DNA of 63,043 nucleotides from a virus. Shown piece after piece: positions 35,749 through 56,388 of this stretch. Under the pieces are notes generated by a model. The model made no database searches. It had not been told where the DNA came from and was given only the letters and a program-made list of their open reading frames with translations. The position numbers and the translations under genes are program-made. The DNA lies in IMG/VR virus record IMGVR_UViG_3300041409_000239, positions 1 through 63,043 of that record; one strand, written 5' to 3'. How positions within the stretch are numbered: the stretch's first letter is position 1; each line of letters opens with the position of its first letter.

Positions 35749-38700
35749 CTATCCCTTCTCGTAGCACTTGGACCAGTCGGACCCGAACGGCCCGGTGTCA
35801 GCCGTGATCGGCACGCCGCGCCACTCGAACGAGAGCGCCTCGACCACGGCGCGAGCCACCTCGGGCGCGTCAGCCGCCGGCACGCTCAACACGATCTCGT
35901 CATGGATCTGGGCCCGGAGCATGGGGAGGATCTCCGCCGGCAACGCCAACAGGCCGGTCATCATGATGTCTCGCGCCGCTCCCTGGCCCATGAGCGCCGG
36001 CCCCTGGGTGTGTGCGCGCTGGGGGTCTGCCCGCATGAGCCGGCCGAACCCGTTGTCCAGCAGTGCCCCCGAACCCGCAAGGGTCCGGATCTCCTCGCGC
36101 CACTCGACCAGCCGGCCGAACCGGTCGCGCATCGAGCGGTCGAATTGCACCACCAGCGCGGGATCGATCTCGTTCCCCTCGGAGATGGCCCTGATCGAGC
36201 GACCGTAGTTCCAGCCGTGCCCGATGGCCTTGGCCTCGTCGCGCCGCTTGACGTCCCCGAACAGGGCCAGTGCGATCTCTGAGTGCGGGTCGTCGGTCTT
36301 GAGCATCTGGATATAGGCCGGGTCCTGGCTCAGACCGGCGATGGCCCGCATGTCGACCTGGGAGAGGTCGGCCGTCATCACGACGTGGCCGGGCTCGGGG
36401 AGGAACACCGCGCGCTCGGTGTGCCGGCCGTTGCGCTTGCCCAGCACGGTGAGCCCTGGCGAGGTCACGGACCAGCGACCGGTGGCCTGATCGAATCCGA
36501 TCTTCGGGTGGACGCGGTCCCCGATCAGGTGGTTGTTGACGGTCTCGAACACCGAGCGCGCCGACACGATCCGGTACACGTTCTCCGCGATGGCCTTGAC
36601 CATCGGGAGGTGCCCATACTCGCTGGCCAGGTGGCGCATGTGGTCTGAGCTGATGTCGAGCTGGCCGGACTTCTCGGTCCGCCAGATCGAGGTGGCCCCG
36701 GCCGCCCGGAGCGCCTGCTCCAACCGCTCTTTGCCCACCTTCGTGCCCACGGGGGAGGCGTAGACCTTGCCGCGCCCGTCCTCCAGCGGTAGCCCGATGT
36801 TGCTGGCGAGCCAGTTCATGGCCACGGCCTTCTGGGCGTTGATCGCCGCGATCCGCTCGGCCAGGACCTCACGGTCCACGCGGAACCCGTTGTAGCTGAT
36901 CTGAGCCGCGATGGCCGCCACCCGGTGTTCCCGGGCCACGTACTCCGGCACGGTGCCGCCGGACTGCTCCAGCAAGGTCGCGTAGACCTGGCGAGAGAGG
37001 TTCACGTCCTGGTGCAGGTAGCTCCGGAACGCGGCCCCGTCCTCGGTGTCCGGGTCGGTGGGAATGCTCCCCCAACCGCCGTACTTCTTGGCCAGGGCCT
37101 TGCCCGCGTCGTCCTTACGGCCGAGCCCGAGCCGCTCGGCCAGCGAATCCAGGTCGTACCGGCGGGTGTGGTCGACACCTTTCTCCCGGGCCATCGGGGG
37201 GTCCAGGTAGCGGGCCAACAGGAGCGTGTCAACGAACCGGCCGCCGGCCGCGAACTCGTGGATGGTCGGCATGTCCAGCACGCCCTCGTGCACGAGTGCG
37301 GGGAGGTCGAACGCCATGATGTTGTGCCCGGTGGTGATCGTGGCGCCCGCGATGGCGCTCACCGCGAACGTGGCCGGACTGGAGCCGTCGATCTCGATCT
37401 CGTTCTCGTCCGAGGCGATGCCCGCCAGGGTCACGTACCCAGGGCCGTGGCGGTGAAGGTCGTCCGCGTCACCGGCCTCCAGGTCGAGCGCGAGCACGTC
37501 GGAGAACGGCCGGCCGTCGGTCATGGTGTCCACGAACCGCTCGGCCGCGCGCTGGAATGAACCCTCCAACACGTCCAGGCTCTCGGCTACCGGATCGGCC
37601 GGCGGAGCCGGCTCGGGCTCGGGAGCCGGTGGGACCGGGGGCACCGTCACGACCTCTGCCGTGTCACCAGGAGCGTGAACCCGCCAGAGCGTCACGTGGC
37701 CGTGCGCGTAGCCCACGCGCTCGATGCGGTGGCCCTCGTAGCGCCGGCCCTTGAGCCGGGAGTACGCCTCCCCCAGTTGCTTGCCGTACTTCTTGTCCGC
37801 CAGGTCGTCCAGGTTCGGCGGGGCCAGGTAGTTGGCCGTATCCGCGAGGGCCTTGTTACGCACCTCGGAGGTCCGGAACGGCGTGGTCCCGAACACCTCG
37901 GTCAGCCACGTCATGTGTCCGATCCAATACTGCGAGTCAAAGTCCGACTCCGAGCGCCACGCGGAGATGTTCTCCAGGAACCCCGGGAGGCCGGCGGTCT
38001 GGACCACGCCACCCGCGAACTTCTCCCAGGTCTCGAACGAACCGAACGAGGAGCCGCGCCGGGTGTACGGCTGGCCGGCCGCGAACCAGGCCCGGACCAA
38101 GGTCAGGATGGCCACCAGGAGATCCCGGCGGTGCTTGCGGGTCCAGGCCCCGAGGTCGAGCCCCGACTGGCCAGGGTGCCGGAACATTGATGAGGGCCGA
38201 TCCTGGGGGTTGTCGTAGTTCGGCCGGAGCGCGATCCGGTAGACACGCCGGGTGATGTCGCCTTTGACCTGGACCTGATTCCCGAGGCTCACCCACGTGA
38301 CGCGGTTCGGGAACTCCGCCATGGTCGAGACACCGAGGATGCGGTCCTGCCAGGTGGCGGCGGTCAGGGCCTGCGCGAGCGGTGCCCCCTGGAGCGTGTG
38401 GGCCTCATCGAACACGAAGAACTCTTGACCGGTGCGGAACGCACTCGTGATCTGCTTGCGCAGCTCCTCGGTGTCATCGACCCAGTTCATCGGCCGCGCC
38501 GGCTCCCCGGTGTAGACCGTGAGCAGCGAGTCCACCAACAGGTTCTTGCCCACACCCATCTGGAGGCCATCGATGACCGCCAGGGGCGCGTGCGGGACCA
38601 GACCACGGATCGCGGGAGTGACCAGTAGGGCCAGACAGTTGGCCTTGTCGGTGTCGGTGGCGAACGGGAAGTCCCCGAGCCACTCGTCCATCAACAGCAC

Positions 38701-39987
38701 GCGCGCGGCCTGGATCTCGGCCGGTGTCGGGTTCTCGGGCACCACCAGGCCGGCCAGCTCCGGGTCCTTCATGAGCATGGTCCGGGTCTCCGGGTCGTAG
38801 CCGGGTTCCAGGACGACGGAGCCGTCCGGGCGCACGAACGGCGCGTGTGCGATCCGGTCCAGGGGGGAGAACTTGCTGGCCTTGCTCATGACCGCCGCGA
38901 TGGCGTTGCCGTCGGGCCACTCGAACGAGTAGGTGGTCCCCTGGGCGCCGTTGTTCTCTTTGACGGTCACGCACGTTTCCTGGATCACGTCGCGCGCCGT
39001 GCCCCGGTCCACCGGGACCATGCGGGTGCCGTCGAGCTGGGAGATCACTCCCCCGTGGTTGAACAGCCGCTGTCCGTCCCACCGGCCGATCAGCGCGCCG
39101 GCCAGATCGTTGATCACGGTGAACCGGTCTTTGTTGACCACCAGGGTTACCCGGTCCTCGGCCCCCGGCCGGTCCTGGTCTTTGCTCTTGCCGGTCGGCC
39201 GCGCGTCGGCGGGCTTGGCCTTGGCGGTCTCGATGATCCGCTCCAGGTAGCCGGCGCGGCGCTCGGGCTCTTTGGTTGACAGCAAGTCGTCAAGTCCGGC
39301 CTTGCCACCGCCACCGGGGAGACGGCCGAACGAGACCTTGCTGGCGCCCTCGGCCATGAGGGCCTCGGCCAGCCCGGTGCCGGCCCGGAACACGTCCAGG
39401 TTGCTGGCCGCGTCCGCGTCGAGCAGGACCACCACGTCCTTGCCATCGGCCACCGCGAGGTCCGGGAGCGGCACGCCGTCCTTGGCCCACATCCGGCAAC
39501 CGGCCATGCCGTAGACCGACACACCGGCCGGCGCGTAACTGGCGGCGGCCAAGCACTGCTTGGTGCCTTCCACGATCAGGATGCGCTCAGCGGTGGGCAC
39601 CACGCGGACGGCCCAGAGGACCGGGTTCATCCCGATCCGGAACATGTACTTTTTGGGCCGGCCGTTCTGGTCGATGGTCGGCTCATCCGGGCGGACCTGG
39701 ATCTCGACCCGGCCGCCAGGGCTGGTCCACGGGAACAGCACCGCCGGAAAGTTCGAGTAGCTGGGCCACGGGTCGTCCAGCTCGGCCATGTCGTGCTTGC
39801 CGGTGATCGACCGAACCCCGAGGGCCACCGCCACGTCCAGCTCGATCGCGTGCGCCCGGAGGTAGTCCTCGTGAGCGGCGGTCAGCTCCCCCTTGATCGG
39901 GTCGGGCTCGATCTTGCCCTCGGTCACCTTGAGAAGTTCGACACCCTCAACCAGCCGGCGCTCATCCTCGCGAATCCCGTCCGTCAT
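35749..39987 (-). CDS. TOPRIM-helicase-family A DNA polymerase fusion
   Basis: 1412 aa from ATG at 39987 (a GTG at 40026 would add 13 aa). Domains in order: TOPRIM-type primase-like region (residues about 40-260: ILIVEGTKQCLAAA, then VVVLLDADAASN); SF3/DUF5906-like ATPase (about 290-720: Walker A GLQMGVGKNLL, Walker B EFFVFDEAHTL); Pro-rich linker (VPPVPPAPEPEPAPPADP, about 765); 3'-5' exonuclease (LALDLEAGD, GHNIMAFDLP, SYLHQDVNL); family A polymerase with motif A DLSQVDMRAIAGLSQD, motif B RRDEAKAIGHGWNYG and motif C QIHDEIVLSV. All catalytic residues appear intact. Phages usually encode these parts separately, so this is a near-complete replisome core in one chain. An orphan operator lies at 39276-39293. 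Confidence 0.93.
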   Translation of the reverse strand: MTDGIREDERRLVEGVELLKVTEGKIEPDPIKGELTAAHEDYLRAHAIELDVAVALGVRSITGKHDMAELDDPWPSYSNFPAVLFPWTSPGGRVEIQVRPDEPTIDQNGRPKKYMFRIGMNPVLWAVRVVPTAERILIVEGTKQCLAAASYAPAGVSVYGMAGCRMWAKDGVPLPDLAVADGKDVVVLLDADAASNLDVFRAGTGLAEALMAEGASKVSFGRLPGGGGKAGLDDLLSTKEPERRAGYLERIIETAKAKPADARPTGKSKDQDRPGAEDRVTLVVNKDRFTVINDLAGALIGRWDGQRLFNHGGVISQLDGTRMVPVDRGTARDVIQETCVTVKENNGAQGTTYSFEWPDGNAIAAVMSKASKFSPLDRIAHAPFVRPDGSVVLEPGYDPETRTMLMKDPELAGLVVPENPTPAEIQAARVLLMDEWLGDFPFATDTDKANCLALLVTPAIRGLVPHAPLAVIDGLQMGVGKNLLVDSLLTVYTGEPARPMNWVDDTEELRKQITSAFRTGQEFFVFDEAHTLQGAPLAQALTAATWQDRILGVSTMAEFPNRVTWVSLGNQVQVKGDITRRVYRIALRPNYDNPQDRPSSMFRHPGQSGLDLGAWTRKHRRDLLVAILTLVRAWFAAGQPYTRRGSSFGSFETWEKFAGGVVQTAGLPGFLENISAWRSESDFDSQYWIGHMTWLTEVFGTTPFRTSEVRNKALADTANYLAPPNLDDLADKKYGKQLGEAYSRLKGRRYEGHRIERVGYAHGHVTLWRVHAPGDTAEVVTVPPVPPAPEPEPAPPADPVAESLDVLEGSFQRAAERFVDTMTDGRPFSDVLALDLEAGDADDLHRHGPGYVTLAGIASDENEIEIDGSSPATFAVSAIAGATITTGHNIMAFDLPALVHEGVLDMPTIHEFAAGGRFVDTLLLARYLDPPMAREKGVDHTRRYDLDSLAERLGLGRKDDAGKALAKKYGGWGSIPTDPDTEDGAAFRSYLHQDVNLSRQVYATLLEQSGGTVPEYVAREHRVAAIAAQISYNGFRVDREVLAERIAAINAQKAVAMNWLASNIGLPLEDGRGKVYASPVGTKVGKERLEQALRAAGATSIWRTEKSGQLDISSDHMRHLASEYGHLPMVKAIAENVYRIVSARSVFETVNNHLIGDRVHPKIGFDQATGRWSVTSPGLTVLGKRNGRHTERAVFLPEPGHVVMTADLSQVDMRAIAGLSQDPAYIQMLKTDDPHSEIALALFGDVKRRDEAKAIGHGWNYGRSIRAISEGNEIDPALVVQFDRSMRDRFGRLVEWREEIRTLAGSGALLDNGFGRLMRADPQRAHTQGPALMGQGAARDIMMTGLLALPAEILPMLRAQIHDEIVLSVPAADAPEVARAVVEALSFEWRGVPITADTGPFGSDWSKCYEKG
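39276..39293 (-). promoter_or_regulatory. Orphan operator inside polymerase fusion gene
   Basis: Perfect TTGAC AGCAAGTC GTCAA, in the region linking the TOPRIM and helicase parts. Core only partly like the others. Confidence 0.5.
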
Positions 39988-40054: not shown

Positions 40055-40999
40055 CTAGTGCTGGTTGGGGGAGACGATCGGGCGCGCGGTGATGCGGCGG
40101 ATCTCGTGACGGACCTGGCGCACCGCGTCCGCCAGGTGGTCGGCCCGCCGAACAGCCGGCGGGGTGTCCAGGGCCCTGCCTACCTTCTCGCTCGTTACCG
40201 AGTCCTCGACCTTGCGGAAGCACTCGCGCAGCGTGTCCACGGTGAGCGCGAGCGAGGCCACCTCGGCCTCGGCCGCGTTCTGCCGGCGCTCGCGGCAATC
40301 GAGGTAGCCCTGGAGTTCGGTGTTCCGGTCCAGGGTGAGCGCGTTCGAGTGCTCCAGGTTGGCCACCCGGTCCCGGAGCCGCGCGATCGTCGCGCGGAGC
40401 GGCTTGGCCACCAGCTCGGCCTCGCTGGCCTGAGCGTCGCCCACCTGGGCGGTCGTGTAGCGCCGGAGCATCTCCTCGCGGTACCGGTCGCGCTCCTCGA
40501 TCAGGAAGTCGATCTGGGCGTCCTTCTCCTCGATCGTGGCCACCGCCACGTCCCGCTCCCGAGCCACGATCTCAATCCGGTTGAGGGTCTCGTCGCGCAT
40601 CTTGCGCGCGTTGTTGCGCTCCTCGGTGAGCTGGTCCACCAGCTTGCGGCCCTGGAACGCCACGTGCCGGCCGAGCGAGCATCCCTCGGTGCACACGTGG
40701 CTACGGTCGTCCTGGATCCGCTTGACCTCGGCCCTGGCCGCGTCACGCTCGGCCCGCGTGGCGTCTCGGTCCTGAGTCGCCACCACCAGACGCGAGTCCA
40801 GCTCGGCCACCCGCTCCACGTGGAGCCGGTACTCCCGACCGAGGGTCTCCACGAACCGGCTGGCCACCGCGTCCAGCGGTGCCGGGTCGGTGTGACTGAC
40901 CATGGCCACCGGTCCAGCGGCAGGCAGTCCGGCGGCCATGTTGGCCCGGATCGCGTCGCTCAAGTCGAGCGGTCGGCGCTCGTTCCTGACTTCATCCAT
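40055..40999 (-). CDS. Coiled-coil protein upstream of the replication fusion
   Basis: 314 aa from ATG at 40999 (MDEVRNERRPLDLSDAIRAN). Nearly all helical and charged. Long coiled coil at about 60-190 (ATQDRDATRAERDAARAEVK; AVATIEEKDAQIDFLIEERD), then ATIARLRDRVANLEHSNAL and a further helix. A short Cys/His site (SHVCTEGCSLGRH) sits in the middle. Co-transcribed with the polymerase, so it may be a replication accessory or a scaffold. No family recognised. Confidence 0.78.
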   Translation of the reverse strand: MDEVRNERRPLDLSDAIRANMAAGLPAAGPVAMVSHTDPAPLDAVASRFVETLGREYRLHVERVAELDSRLVVATQDRDATRAERDAARAEVKRIQDDRSHVCTEGCSLGRHVAFQGRKLVDQLTEERNNARKMRDETLNRIEIVARERDVAVATIEEKDAQIDFLIEERDRYREEMLRRYTTAQVGDAQASEAELVAKPLRATIARLRDRVANLEHSNALTLDRNTELQGYLDCRERRQNAAEAEVASLALTVDTLRECFRKVEDSVTSEKVGRALDTPPAVRRADHLADAVRQVRHEIRRITARPIVSPNQH

Positions 41000-41069
41000 G
41001 GATCTCAATTTCCCCTCTGTCTCTCTGATCTGCCCGGCCGGCGGTGGGTCACCGCCGGCCGGGAGCTGA

Positions 41070-41099
41070 ACCTTACAGGCTTGCCGTACAGGTCGTCAA
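41070..41099 (-). promoter_or_regulatory. Family promoter for replication operon (40999)
   Basis: Minus strand TTGACG, 18 bp ending GCCTG, TAAGGT. It overlaps the end of the helicase gene. The transcript would begin with a 14-bp CCGGCCGGCGG-type hairpin (about 41032-41064). Confidence 0.75.
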
Positions 41100-42799
41100 G
41101 CGGACTGGAGCCGGCGCATCCCGTGGCGTGCCCCGATCCGCGTGATCAGGTCGGCCGCCTCACCCCGGGTCTTGACAAGGTGGAGTTTGTCCTCGGGGAA
41201 CCCCTCGCGGACCAGCCGGCCTTTCTGCGGGTCGGACACGCTGCCCTTGAGCCAGCGCGCGTCCCGCTCCACCAGCTTCTGGAACGCCTTGGCGCGGTCC
41301 TCACCGATGCCCATGGCCCAGTCGGCCGGGAGCGCCTCGTGGAGCACGTTGACCTTGCCGTTCTCGTAGGTCGCGAGCTTCCACGTGTCGTCACCCAGGG
41401 GGGCCATGATCACGACCTCTTTGCCGGCACCCAGGCACCACCCGTCACCGATCGGCAACCAGCGCAGACGCGAGCCCGCGAACACGTCCACCTTGCGGGT
41501 CTCGATCGCCGCACACGTGTCGTGCCGGCGCGAGCCCTCCCGGATCAACAGTTCGGTGAGCCGTCGCTGGCAGAGCGCGCAACGGTGCTCCGGGGCCTCG
41601 CACGCGGTGCCGCACACCGGGCAGACCTGGGGGGTGCTCTCCTCGCCCTTGTCCTTCTTGCGCTTGCCGCCCTCGTCGGCCAGCCCGAGATCGACGTAGG
41701 TGGTCAACTCGTGGCGCTCGCTGGCCCCGGTCACGTCCAGGATCAGAAGGTTCTTCTTGCCAGGGTGAAGCCGCGTGCCGCGCCCGATCATCTGGGTGTA
41801 CAGGCCCTGGAACTTGGTCGGCCGGGCCACGCACACGCACGAGATCGAGGACTCATCGAACCCCTCGGTCAGCACCGAACAGTTACAGACCCATTGGGTC
41901 TCACCGGTCTTGAGCCGGGCCAGGATGGCCGCGCGCTCTGTCTTCTCGGTGCCGCCGTCCAGGGCCTCGGCCGGCACACCCAGAGCCCGCAGAGCCGCCG
42001 CCAGCCGGTGCGCGGTGGCCACCGTCGGCGTGAACGCGATGCCCTTGCGGCCGGTGGCGTGCTCCACGATGGCCGCCGCGATCTCCTCGATCGCGCCGCT
42101 GGACTCCATCTCTCCCCCGAGGGAGCCGTCCGCGTAGTCGCCACCGTTGCGACGCACGTTGCCCAGCTCCATCGAGGTGCGCACGGTCTGGCCCTCGATC
42201 GGGACCAGATAGCCGCCCTCGTGGGCCTGCTGGCCCTTGCGCTTGCCGGCTCCGTAAATGGCCTCGCGGATTGACATGTAAGCGACAACGCGCTCCCACG
42301 TGCCCAGCGCCTTGCCGTCGCGCTGGGGCGTCGCGGTGAACCCGGCGGTGAGCGGGCCCACGGGGGAGAACGAACCCATGGCGGTGAGGATCTTCTGCCA
42401 GGTCGGAGCCGGCGCGTGGTGCGCCTCGTCAACGATCACTGTCGCGAACTCGCCGAACAGGGTCTCGCTCGCCTTGAGTTCGGCCAGCCGGTTGACCAGG
42501 GTCCACACCGACGCGATGACCACCTGGGCGGTCATCTCATTGCGGGTCGCCTGGACCACTCCGGTGCCCAGCTCGGGCGCGACCATCGCGAGTTTCTCGG
42601 CGGTCTGGCCGGCCAGCTCCTCGCGGTGCACGAGGACCAGCGAGCGGCCGAGGTCGGCGCGCTGCTTGGCCAGGTGCGCGAACGTCACCGTCTTGCCGGT
42701 GCCCGTCGGGTGGACCACCAGGGGACGGACGACACCCTCGCGGTACGCGGTCTCCAGGGCCTGGATCGCGTGGCTCTGGTAGGGCCGTAGGTCCAACAT
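41096..42799 (-). CDS. SF2 DEAD/DEAH-box helicase
   Basis: 567 aa from ATG at 42799 (MLDLRPYQSHAIQALETAYR); upstream in-frame codons are not protein-like. Motif I VVHPTGTGKTVTFAH, motif II VIVDEAHHAP, motif III AGFTATP, motif VI YTQMIGRGTRLHPGK. A Cys cluster (CPVCGTACEAPEHRCALC, about residues 375-392) sits in the C-terminal half, before a domain of unknown function. Similar to UvsW/RadD-like phage helicases for recombination or replication fork processing. ATGA overlap with the upstream gene. Confidence 0.93.
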   Translation of the reverse strand: MLDLRPYQSHAIQALETAYREGVVRPLVVHPTGTGKTVTFAHLAKQRADLGRSLVLVHREELAGQTAEKLAMVAPELGTGVVQATRNEMTAQVVIASVWTLVNRLAELKASETLFGEFATVIVDEAHHAPAPTWQKILTAMGSFSPVGPLTAGFTATPQRDGKALGTWERVVAYMSIREAIYGAGKRKGQQAHEGGYLVPIEGQTVRTSMELGNVRRNGGDYADGSLGGEMESSGAIEEIAAAIVEHATGRKGIAFTPTVATAHRLAAALRALGVPAEALDGGTEKTERAAILARLKTGETQWVCNCSVLTEGFDESSISCVCVARPTKFQGLYTQMIGRGTRLHPGKKNLLILDVTGASERHELTTYVDLGLADEGGKRKKDKGEESTPQVCPVCGTACEAPEHRCALCQRRLTELLIREGSRRHDTCAAIETRKVDVFAGSRLRWLPIGDGWCLGAGKEVVIMAPLGDDTWKLATYENGKVNVLHEALPADWAMGIGEDRAKAFQKLVERDARWLKGSVSDPQKGRLVREGFPEDKLHLVKTRGEAADLITRIGARHGMRRLQSA

Positions 42800-43182
42800 C
42801 AGTGCCCCCGGATCACGGTCGCGGTGTAGTTGCGGATCTCTTTGCCGGCGAACCGGCCCGACCTGATCGGGGATTTGCCCTCGAACCGGATGGTCAGGGT
42901 GTCGCCCATCTTGGCGTCGGCCGCCTCCAGCGCGGCGCGTGCGGTGTTGCCCCAGGCGGTGAACCGGACGCGGCTGGTTCCGCCGAGCCACAGTTCCACC
43001 CACGGGATCAGGTCCCCCGGGTCGGTCATGAACGCGGAAGCACGCCGGCCCTTGCGGAGCAGCACGCCGGAGACCTCGTCTCCGGGCTGGTCCAGCTCCA
43101 CGGCCGGTGCGTCGCCCTCGGTGAGCGCGCGGACCGCGCACATCAGGCACGAGTCCTGGTGGCTCGGCGGTGTGGTGCTCAT
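42799..43182 (-). CDS. Small protein sharing FAGK motif with 44121 gene
   Basis: 127 aa from ATG at 43182. The C-terminal IRFEGKSPIRSGRFAGKEIR matches VKYFGEKPIRKGKFAGKMYK of the protein encoded at 44121-44552, so the two share a C-terminal module (likely OB-like or beta barrel). It directly precedes the helicase, suggesting ssDNA binding or helicase partnering. The N-terminal MSTTPPSHQDSCLMCAV carries a CxxC. Its mRNA leader contains the structured element at 43204-43302. Confidence 0.78.
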   Translation of the reverse strand: MSTTPPSHQDSCLMCAVRALTEGDAPAVELDQPGDEVSGVLLRKGRRASAFMTDPGDLIPWVELWLGGTSRVRFTAWGNTARAALEAADAKMGDTLTIRFEGKSPIRSGRFAGKEIRNYTATVIRGH

Positions 43183-53614: not shown

Positions 53615-55509
53615 GCGCCGTCCCGGATCGCGCCCAAGGTCAGGTCCCGCTTGTCCTTGCGCACCCGCCCGAGCACGATCCCGCGCGCCCGCGCGAGCGT
53701 CTTGAGCTGGGCCATGGTCAGGGCCTCGATGCCCTTACCGGTGTCGTTCGGGTTCAGCTCTCCCTCGTGCACGAGGAGCCGCCACTCCGGCGTACCGAAC
53801 CGGTCGGCCGGGTCGGTCTCGATCAGGTGGGTCTCGATCAGGTCGTCCTCACCGCGTGCGTGGTCATCGGCGTCGCGCTCGAACTCGGAGCCGTCGCCCT
53901 CGTTCTCGACCATCACCGTGTCGTTGCCCTGGACAGTGACCTGTGCACCCAGGAGGTTCACGGTCTCGATGGGCTGGCCGCCGGCCATGTCGGACTCGTG
54001 CACCGCCACCAGGGGGACCCCTAGCTCGGCCGGTGACGCGGCCAGTTTGGTGACCGCCAGCCGGCCGTGGAAGAGCTGGAAGGGCTCTAGGTAGCCGGAC
54101 TCCACCAGCTCATCCACGGCGCGGCGTAGACCGTCGTAGTCCGGGTCACCGATCACGTAGTCGTCAATGGCGATGACCGCACCGGGCGCGAGGTGGCGCG
54201 CCCAAGCCAGGATGTCCGAGCGACACCCCAGGTAGGTGTGATCGCCATCGACGTAGAGCAGGCCCACCGGCCGGCCGTCCCAGGAGTCGGCCGCGTCGGT
54301 GCTGAACGCCTGGGTGAGGTGCACGTCCTTGGTGTGGCCCTTGGCCCGCACGTTGTACTGGGCCCACTTGCGGGCACCCTCGTTGTCGAACTCGGGGCCG
54401 TAAACGTTGCCGTCGGTGTCCCAGGGGTCGAACCCCCAGACGTGCGCGCCGTTGCCCTGGCGGGCTCCGTAGCTCAACATCAGCGCGGTGTACCCCTGGT
54501 GGACACCCAACTCCACGATGGCCTGCCATTGCGGCACTGAGCGGGCCAGGTCGGCCAGGGTGATACCGACCTCGGGGGGAGTGAGCGCCTTGACGTCCCG
54601 GAGGTATCGCGGGGTGATGCGGTTGGCAGATCGGGTCTGGTTCACGGCTGGTCCTCTCGCGGCGGTGGGCCCGGAGCGTGCCGGGTTGTTTGATCGTGAC
54701 ACGCGGCCGGTTCCCCACGCGGCGCGCTCGGTGACCGCCGCCACGGCGCGGCGCGGCTTGCGCGCCACGGGCGCGACGGGCATCGGGCGGTCCGGCTGGA
54801 GCGCCACCACGGCGGCCACGTCGGCCGCCCGGTCGGCGCGTTGCCACGCCTCGTAGGTCGCGAGGTCCTTGCGGAACTGGTCCCGGTGGTTGACGCGCCG
54901 ATACTGGGCATCGTTCTCGGCCTTGCCGACGATCGGGTGCATGTGCTCGATCACGACCTGGGGGAGGTAGCGCACCGCGCCGGCCGCCCTGAACGTCTCC
55001 AGGACCGACACATCGGAGTACATGTGATCCACGGGAGCCGGCACCATCCGGCCGAGCGCACGGACCACGTCAGAGGTCATCGCCCATTCCGTACACAGGT
55101 TCTCGTGCTGGAACCCGTCGTCCCCGTAGACCAGGCCGGTTCGTAGCTCGCGCAGCGCATCGAGGTAGGTCTGGGTCCAGCCGATGGTTCGGGGGAGGTG
55201 ATCGTCGCCCGCGAACCCGAGGGCCCAATACTGGCCGGAGAGCGCGCGTGCGGTCTCGTCCAGCTTGTGCACCATCGGGTGCCACTCGTCATGGGTGATG
55301 ATCCGGAGCGGGCATGGCTCGCCCTCGGTCACACCGATGTTGAAGTGGTCCAGGATCTCGACGTACGCGGCATAGCTCGGGTCGTCGCCATCGATGGCGA
55401 GCACGAGGTCCGCCACGTCCCACGCGTTGGTGAAGTCCCAGGCAGAGATCACCTTGAGGATGTTCTCCGGCCGGCCCTTGGTCGGGACGATGATCGCGAG
55501 GTCAGCCAT
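53611..55509 (-). CDS. Glycosyltransferase-methyltransferase fusion
   Basis: 632 aa, ATG at 55509. Residues 1-210 are a GT-A glycosyltransferase (LAIIVPTKGRPENILKVISA; DGDDPSYAAY as the DxD-type site; ALGFAGDDHLPRT). A basic linker (VAPVARKPRRAVAAVTERAA) follows. Residues about 310-470 are a class I SAM methyltransferase (AIVELGVHQGYTALMLSYGA; LLYVDGDHTYLG). The C-terminal part ends in a SAP-like helical segment (IEALTMAQLKTLARARGIVL). Probably adds and methylates sugars on virion proteins, as described for some actinophages. The three-part fusion is unusual. Confidence 0.88.
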   Translation of the reverse strand: MADLAIIVPTKGRPENILKVISAWDFTNAWDVADLVLAIDGDDPSYAAYVEILDHFNIGVTEGEPCPLRIITHDEWHPMVHKLDETARALSGQYWALGFAGDDHLPRTIGWTQTYLDALRELRTGLVYGDDGFQHENLCTEWAMTSDVVRALGRMVPAPVDHMYSDVSVLETFRAAGAVRYLPQVVIEHMHPIVGKAENDAQYRRVNHRDQFRKDLATYEAWQRADRAADVAAVVALQPDRPMPVAPVARKPRRAVAAVTERAAWGTGRVSRSNNPARSGPTAARGPAVNQTRSANRITPRYLRDVKALTPPEVGITLADLARSVPQWQAIVELGVHQGYTALMLSYGARQGNGAHVWGFDPWDTDGNVYGPEFDNEGARKWAQYNVRAKGHTKDVHLTQAFSTDAADSWDGRPVGLLYVDGDHTYLGCRSDILAWARHLAPGAVIAIDDYVIGDPDYDGLRRAVDELVESGYLEPFQLFHGRLAVTKLAASPAELGVPLVAVHESDMAGGQPIETVNLLGAQVTVQGNDTVMVENEGDGSEFERDADDHARGEDDLIETHLIETDPADRFGTPEWRLLVHEGELNPNDTGKGIEALTMAQLKTLARARGIVLGRVRKDKRDLTLGAIRDGA

Positions 55510-56191
55510 TGAAGCTCTCCGGGTGGTAGGCGAAATGCGGGTGCTCGATCTCCAGCCGGTCCAGGCCCGGGTGGATCGACTTGGGCGCCGACCACCGCGA
55601 ACCGATGCCGGCGGTCTTGGCCGTGCTGAACAGGTAGTGGTACATGATCCGGTTGATCATCACCTGGCGCTGGAGCCGGCGCGTGCGGCGGAGCTGCTGG
55701 ACCCAGGACCGGTCCTCGGGCTGGCCGTGCTTGGTCTTGCGGAAGTCGGCCAGCAGCGCGATGTCACGGCGGATCGGGTTGATGTGGGAGATGTCCCGGA
55801 AGTACCGGACCTCTTCGTTCCACCAGCGCGTGTGCTTGAGACTGTGCTCCGAGATCGCGGTGGGCACCCCGTCCGAGTAGCACTGGACCAGCCAACCCAC
55901 GTAGTCCGGCCGGTCGGCCAGCGCGGCCATGGCCTCGGCCACGAAGTAGTCCGGGACCAGATCGTCGTCATCGATGCACGAGACGTAGTCGGTCGTGGCG
56001 TCCTGGTTCATGCGCTGGCGGATCTCGGTGAGGTGCGGGTCCCCGTTGTTGTACCAGGCCATCACCTTGACCGCGCCGCCGAACGGCTCGGTCTGGGGGA
56101 GCAGCGCGCCCATGAGCCGCTCGAACGAGAGCCGGCGCTCACCAATGGTCGGAACCAGGATGGTCCAGCTCGGGCTCGGGATCTCGGTCAC
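55502..56191 (-). CDS. Glycosyltransferase family 2-like protein
   Basis: 229 aa from GTG at 56191; a longer reading back to 56347 runs through the non-coding element and is rejected. VTEIPSPSWTILVPTIGERR, then TTDYVSCIDDDDLVPDYFVA with the DDDD metal motif and a following helix. The TAAGGT -10-like box lies 7 nt before the GTG, so it may be leaderless. First gene of the glycosylation cluster, immediately below repeat element B. Confidence 0.84.
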   Translation of the reverse strand: MTEIPSPSWTILVPTIGERRLSFERLMGALLPQTEPFGGAVKVMAWYNNGDPHLTEIRQRMNQDATTDYVSCIDDDDLVPDYFVAEAMAALADRPDYVGWLVQCYSDGVPTAISEHSLKHTRWWNEEVRYFRDISHINPIRRDIALLADFRKTKHGQPEDRSWVQQLRRTRRLQRQVMINRIMYHYLFSTAKTAGIGSRWSAPKSIHPGLDRLEIEHPHFAYHPESFNG

Positions 56192-56230
56192 GGCTGACAC
56201 CTTACAGGCATGGGTGGTTGGTTGGCTAGC

Positions 56231-56388
56231 GGTGTGAACCCGGGGGAGCTGGGGGAAGCGCCCGGAAGGTGTGCCCCGTATATATGTGCCTCGCGTGCTC
56301 GCGTGTGTGCGGGTGCACGCGGTAGAGACATACCTTTTTTTGAACAACCAATAGCGTAGGAGCTTCCCCCAGCTCCCCCGGGTTCACC
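56231..56388. repeat. Non-coding repeat element B (25-bp inverted repeat; homologous to 20987-21184)
   Basis: A perfect 25-bp inverted repeat (56235-56259 and 56362-56386, outer ends TGAACCC/GGGTTCA) encloses about 100 bp with GTATATATGTGC, CGCGTGTGTGCGGGTGC and a T7 run. The right arm, with ATAGCGTAGG before it, contains the 29-bp block (56351-56379) identical to 21147-21175. Lies between the minor tail gene (56391-57095) and the glycosylation cluster. Confidence 0.85.

Follow-up and report, generated by a model that had tools for sequence, protein, structure and literature searches.

Can the core of a phage replisome be made as a single polypeptide? This question is raised by a gene in IMG/VR virus record IMGVR_UViG_3300041409_000239, whose 63,043 nucleotides (the window) come from a soil actinobacteriophage and in which an uninterrupted minus-strand frame runs from an ATG at 39987 to a stop at 35749. 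Its 1412-aa product carries primase, helicase, exonuclease and polymerase modules, and an earlier inspection made without database searches (the sequence-only reading) had proposed a self-contained replisome core. Our analysis, which draws on sequence comparison and structural models, finds this to be the best explanation and a probable one, because the four modules are intact in sequence, the fusion is conserved among relatives, and no DnaB, SSB, DnaG zinc domain or Prim-Pol is recognisable in the 63-kb record.

One frame with four modules

35749..39987, minus strand: fused primase-helicase-exonuclease-DNA polymerase, 1412 aa; one open frame with full-length homologues

PHROG family 17 ('DNA polymerase', a profile of 1445 positions) spans residues 26-1411 without a break (E=2.8e-153). 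The TOPRIM motifs, Walker A and B, the three exonuclease motifs and polymerase motifs A, B and C were all located in this frame, as had been claimed, and profile searches combined with AlphaFold2 models assign a primase core, a P-loop motor and a Klenow-like exonuclease-polymerase. Conservation was counted in 39 homologues of the N-terminal half and 34 of the C-terminal half; the catalytic residues of the TOPRIM and helicase domains are invariant in the 39, and neither domain appears dead in sequence. The relative pN/pS, of which only the ranking is used because DNA this rich in GC makes absolute values untrustworthy, rises from the helicase (0.44) through the polymerase (0.50) and primase (0.56) to the linker and exonuclease (0.75, the highest). 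Because the catalytic residues are kept and the helicase and primase are constrained about as much as the polymerase, no module looks like a relic.

An assembly or frame artefact must be considered in an environmental contig of high-GC DNA, where chance stops are few. Its probability is negligible: the same fusion is present in the isolated Actinoplanes phage phiAsp2 and in about 35 contigs, and the start and Shine-Dalgarno (SD) sequence that a separate polymerase gene would need are mostly lost in the fused genes. The phiAsp2 homologue, Pas55 (YP_024841), is encoded by one 1415-aa gene with the same four modules and is 64% identical within residues 35-1411 of the window protein; its record names only a hypothetical protein or putative DNA polymerase, the primase and helicase being unrecognised there, and our literature search found no paper devoted to the phiAsp2 genome. 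In IMG/VR, a single-sequence scan returned one relative and an alignment-based query 42 loci, about 35 of which have the ATPase and polymerase in one stop-free frame, nearly all with TOPRIM.

The primase part

39190..39900, minus strand: DnaG/T7 gp4-type RNA-polymerase (TOPRIM) catalytic core, residues 30-266, without zinc-binding domain; AlphaFold2 model and VIA
39412..39570, minus strand: TOPRIM catalytic residues E140, D190 and D192; invariant in 39 sequences

The TOPRIM motifs read VEG at 139-141 (E140) and DAD at 190-192. In the model, residues 30-266 match the RNA-polymerase domains of DnaG and T7 gp4 over about 180-210 residues (VIA Z 13-16), the primase family phrog_16213 covers residues 81-267, and a weak Pfam match to DUF3854 is found in 32 of the 39 homologues. 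The zinc-ribbon family PF01807 is absent from the 63-kb record, no DnaG zinc domain was found, and the whole protein has only five, scattered, Cys. On sequence and model, the N-terminal domain classifies as a DnaG-type catalytic core only, without the zinc domain. Among the relatives, the unfused primase-helicases L003 and L036 have at their C-terminus a zinc-ribbon-like CxxC...CxxC stretch that the window fusion lacks.

It could be argued that the N-terminal half works as an initiator that melts the origin, or else in repair, with a non-priming TOPRIM domain and a motor used only in initiation, and that replicative helicase and primase come from the host. Initiator roles are frequent among SF3 proteins, DUF3854-type TOPRIM domains carry no assigned Pfam function, and the missing zinc-binding domain fits such a role. 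However, the fold match extends beyond TOPRIM over the whole DnaG RNA-polymerase core, the catalytic E/D/D is invariant, and some relatives carry an AEP primase module in the same place, which points to priming as the function under selection. We consider this alternative improbable.

The helicase motor

37678..39162, minus strand: P-loop helicase module (phrog_10537-type), D5/SF3-like, residues 276-770; phrog_10537 E=1.8e-52 and fold matches
38542..38568, minus strand: Walker A GLQMGVGKN (474-482); G474, G480 and K481 invariant in 39, N482 in 38
38404..38409, minus strand: Walker B acidic pair D527-E528 (FFVFDEAH); invariant in 39
38245..38280, minus strand: candidate SF3 motif C/sensor 1 N570 and candidate arginine finger R581; both invariant in 39

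N570 and R581 are assigned by position, so that their roles as motif C and arginine finger are putative. The AlphaFold2 model of residues 30-774 has a pLDDT of 81 and a pTM of 0.53. Foldseek alone gave no match in the PDB at E<0.001, nor did a PDB sequence search with the N-half profile give a meaningful one; re-ranking with VIA then resolved the domains. Residues of about 276-690 match D5-type motors: the SaPI5 primase-helicase (Z 8.3), D5 and MPXV E5 (7.5-7.9) and NrS-1 (7.4-7.6), the listed rows being all of the D5 class; the rmsd is mostly 5-7 A over 250-300 residues, and a Z of about 8 is weak. D5_N and DUF5906 are not among the Pfam families listed for the 39 homologues. Since the fold scores are near noise and neither family is matched, the modelled motor is said to resemble D5 and is not filed as a member of that family. 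The DUF5906-like ATPase of the sequence-only reading thus stands as a likeness of fold, but not as a Pfam detection in the 1412-aa protein.

An SF4/DnaB helicase was rejected, DnaB_C (PF03796) being absent where control genomes were positive, and so was DUF927, with no match at E<=1 in the protein. Motors of the phrog_10537 type stand elsewhere on one chain with AEP-type primase modules, namely Prim-Pol and PriCT_2 in phage TPWB-08 (E=3e-26), and in vir525 a motor of the same family lies behind a weak PriL-like match; such pairing supports a role as the primase's helicase.

The exonuclease and polymerase

36943..37512, minus strand: 3'-5' exonuclease domain with DEDDy motifs, residues 826-1015; motif residues invariant in 34, Klenow-type fold
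35752..36927, minus strand: family A DNA polymerase domain, residues 1021-1412; Pfam DNA_pol_A E=1e-23
36352..36354, minus strand: D1212, at the E. coli Pol I E710 position (steric gate); hidden Markov model (HMM) alignment to Klenow, Asp in 34/34
36217..36219, minus strand: H1257, at the E. coli Pol I F762 position (O-helix); HMM alignment to Klenow, His in 33/34

The exonuclease motifs consist of D835/E837 (I), N889/D894 (II) and Y990/D994 (III), of which D835, E837, D894, Y990 and D994 are invariant in the 34 homologues. Polymerase motif A contains D1207, motif B R1249/K1253/Y1261 and motif C H1362-D1363-E1364; D1207, R1249, Y1261, D1363 and E1364 are invariant and K1253 is kept in 33. The C-half model (pLDDT 89) matches the Bst and Taq Pol I large fragments with a Z of about 30-31, a Klenow-type fold. 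By sequence and model, this half qualifies as a family A DNA polymerase with a DEDDy 3'-5' exonuclease. In L028 and L087, motif B reads RGSRRKPSVGWNYG; the contig probably has a brief frame error there that is soon compensated. When 12 fused proteins were scanned with a simple pattern, no beta-clamp-like motif emerged.

Published phage PolA classes have Phe, Tyr or Leu at position 762 (PMC6302109, PMC9069017, PMC13228545). The window polymerase, with His762, falls outside these F/Y/L762 classes while still belonging to family A. A second scan, with the polymerase as query, returned 80 loci; Asp710 occurs in all 77 related ones and His762 in 76 of the 77, the exception being a locally garbled sequence, figures that describe one clade and not all PolA because the scan was seeded with, and biased towards, the same class. 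Named phages with Asp710/His762 are Mischief19, phiSAJS1, JustBecause, prophiT46-3 and WaterT; Glu and Phe are kept in the more distant actinophage polymerases of Samy, Heathen and phiSASD1 and in the split polymerases L037, L038, L045 and L046. Because a large survey accepted only F, L or Y at 762 (PMC9069017), the Asp710/His762 class would be dropped from it. Our literature search for His762 or F762H gave nothing relevant, which is not proof of absence.

Comparison with known systems

PREX, found in the apicoplast of Plasmodium and Toxoplasma, carries primase, helicase, 3'-5' exonuclease and family A polymerase on one chain (PMC8113025). The window protein has the corresponding modules in the same order, also on a single chain. 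The PREX helicase is of the T7 gp4/Twinkle-like SF4 type, whereas the window motor is D5/SF3-like and lacks DnaB_C. The sequence-only reading was not certain that this exact fusion is new. Broadly taken it is already described, since Pas55 is in GenBank and PREX arranges its domains in the same order but with another helicase. The concept of an all-in-one replication protein is already known, and what is new is the variant with a D5/SF3-like motor.

A viral precedent is the 3173 Pol polyprotein of Thermocrinis Octopus Spring virus (TOSV), a DUF927 helicase-exonuclease-PolA fusion that is split in some relatives (PMC7689252). Both systems thus have a viral helicase-exonuclease-PolA fusion with fused and split relatives, but TOSV has an N-terminal DUF927 module that was not detected in the window protein (E<=1). 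In T7, gp4 joins primase to helicase and gp5 joins exonuclease to polymerase, so it was too strong to say, as had been done earlier, that separate proteins normally carry these activities. T7 resembles the window protein in joining a DnaG-type primase to a ring motor and in its Klenow-like exonuclease-polymerase; it differs in using two proteins, an SF4 motor and a zinc domain on gp4. In the Streptomyces Woodruffvirus phages Mischief19 and phiSAJS1, the TOPRIM core (41%) and the polymerase (33%, also Asp710/His762) are homologous to those of the window protein and are encoded by adjacent genes in the same order, with the difference that there are two genes and another helicase (D5_N and DUF5906).

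Fused and split relatives

Relatives were also identified in the genomes of actinobacterial hosts (Micromonospora, Knoellia, Nocardioides and Blastococcus). Across the loci of the second, polymerase-based scan, the architectures comprise TOPRIM with a phrog_10537 motor, exonuclease and polymerase; TOPRIM with a DUF5906 motor, exonuclease and polymerase (at least 13 loci); an AEP Prim-Pol with a DUF5906 (D5-type) motor, exonuclease and the same polymerase class (L116:1071-6110, Prim-Pol E=2e-17 in Pfam; a second such fusion, L106:1251-6038, was judged by eye only from its DxD and SGGxH motifs); and adjacent split pairs. In the split relatives the same two halves adjoin, with the primase-helicase before the polymerase. 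They are separate, overlapping genes in a Nocardioides genome bin, while in L089/L090, L111 and L120 one in-frame TGA lies between the upstream frame and the polymerase frame; the latter begins at an ATG, with an SD, about seven codons before exonuclease motif I.

Two further loci depart from these types. L049:5779-9690 (Knoellia sp. Soil729) is a primase-helicase-polymerase fusion without a recognisable exonuclease, in which motif A reads DLAGID, not DLSQVD. In L136:3-3998, a LAGLIDADG/homing-endonuclease match lies in the helicase part of the fused polymerase and ends near a Walker-A-like region; this insertion is probably an intein, and L135 (1910 aa) perhaps holds another.

On a maximum-likelihood tree of 56 rows, the fused/split label requires 8 changes (8-9 across bootstraps, with 7 that well-supported branches impose), and 7 are needed for the helicase type. 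It is important to note that the 8 changes are approximate: the tree does not distinguish gain from loss, several labels come from partial contigs, and some of the split ones are metagenomic contigs with a possible frame error (e.g. L096). From these sequences, the fusion appears to have arisen several times, one polymerase clade having switched between the fused and split states about 8 times.

37513..37677, minus strand: Pro-rich variable linker, residues 771-825, without conserved internal ribosome-binding start; sequence, relatives compared

The two halves are joined by a hinge, as had been noted, although not near residue 765: the hinge covers about 771-825 and its Pro-rich stretch 783-798. 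An internal start that would yield free polymerase was rejected for the window, whose linker has no SD-preceded start; in the linkers of fused relatives, candidate internal starts (23/102) are little above the 17% background. Among split genes, 19 of 28 have their own start with SD before exonuclease motif I, compared with 7 of 52 fused ones (Fisher p=2e-6, which overstates the independent evidence because the rows are phylogenetically related). Since the start and SD are mostly lost in fused genes and absent in the window, the window polymerase is probably made only as part of the fused chain.

That chain might still be a polyprotein that is cleaved within the Pro-rich linker to give a primase-helicase and an exonuclease-polymerase, so that fusion would only fix the expression ratio. 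Processing has a precedent in PREX, for which a smaller band consistent with cleavage has been reported (PMC8113025; see also PMC7689252). The linker is poorly conserved in sequence and in length (53 to 148 residues across relatives), and the interchange of fused and split forms about 8 times in the clade implies that covalent linkage is not generally required. Against cleavage, we recognised no dedicated protease in the vicinity of the gene, and so variable a linker reveals no conserved cut site, while a host protease could cut an unstructured linker. We regard a cleaved polyprotein as rather unlikely, with somewhat more in its favour than the initiator or repair role.

A probable single-chain replisome core

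In the proposed mechanism, the motor domains would assemble into a ring that moves along the DNA at the replication fork. SF3 motors move 3'-5', and for this reason the leading-strand template would be the track of the ring, which would run the same way as a tethered polymerase copying that template, an arrangement that would be like CMG/Pol-epsilon and unlike the lagging-strand motor of T7. The primase domains borne by the ring would prime the displaced strand, and the primers could be extended by spare tethered polymerases, much as several T7 gp5 molecules are held by gp4. The flexible Pro-rich tether would replace a separate protein-protein contact and fix one polymerase per motor subunit.

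Several points weigh against such a core. The missing zinc domain is the main weak point of the proposed mechanism: this domain is the template reader in bacterial and T7 primases, and primer synthesis is not assured. The helicase fold scores of about 8 approach the level of unrelated matches (aligner noise), and D5_N and DUF5906 have no Pfam match at E<=1 in the 1412-aa protein. The sugar-contacting residues of the polymerase, Asp710 and His762, are unusual. Carrying one polymerase on each subunit makes for a bulky ring, a burden that processing in the linker would relieve. Finally, the record may be incomplete, which makes the absence of other replication genes weak evidence.

Taking the clade as a whole, we tentatively suggest, as a possibility below even chances, that the overlooked Asp710/His762 actinophage PolA class is a constant module repeatedly fused to at least three kinds of primase-helicase (TOPRIM with phrog_10537, TOPRIM with DUF5906, and AEP with DUF5906). 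In the resulting single-chain cores, an SF3-type ring might work on the same leading-strand template as its polymerases, whose remodelled sugar pocket would favour the extension of primers made in cis.

Neighbouring genes

40055..41008, minus strand: coiled-coil protein with HVC-x3-C-x4-HVAF motif, possible partner; about a dozen relatives have a homologue directly upstream
41096..43150, minus strand: DEAD/ResIII-type SF2 helicase, conserved neighbour; Pfam ResIII 8e-26, phrog_16

The SF2 helicase is encoded near the core gene in most relatives, and in the window the coiled-coil gene sits between both. The coiled-coil protein had been named as a possible partner, which is modestly favoured by its upstream homologues in about a dozen relatives and by a shared motif in several: HVC-x3-C-x4-HVAF was found in 8 of about 20 inspected upstream homologues, those preceding the fused gene in L011, L013, L015, L016, L027, L028, L029 and L042. 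On the other side, the gene is not universal, being absent or unrecognisable in other relatives, phiAsp2 included. One speculation from these sequences is that the coiled-coil protein could supply a zinc site. Elsewhere in the window, three adjacent genes (52853-56347) match glycosyltransferase families; the middle one (632 aa) matches phrog_2675 'DNA methyltransferase', its N-terminus also matching a glycosyltransferase family. They may act in glycosylation of DNA or of the virion.

Significance

Primase, ring helicase, proofreading and polymerase united on one chain would constitute a minimal replisome for mechanistic and biotechnological work, with a possible use in isothermal amplification without added primers or helicase. 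The Asp710/His762 class represents a blind spot wherever surveys of phage polymerases read life style from residue 762. Close relatives of the window protein, fused or split and with exchanged helicases, provide a natural comparison that can test the benefit of covalent coupling between helicase and polymerase.

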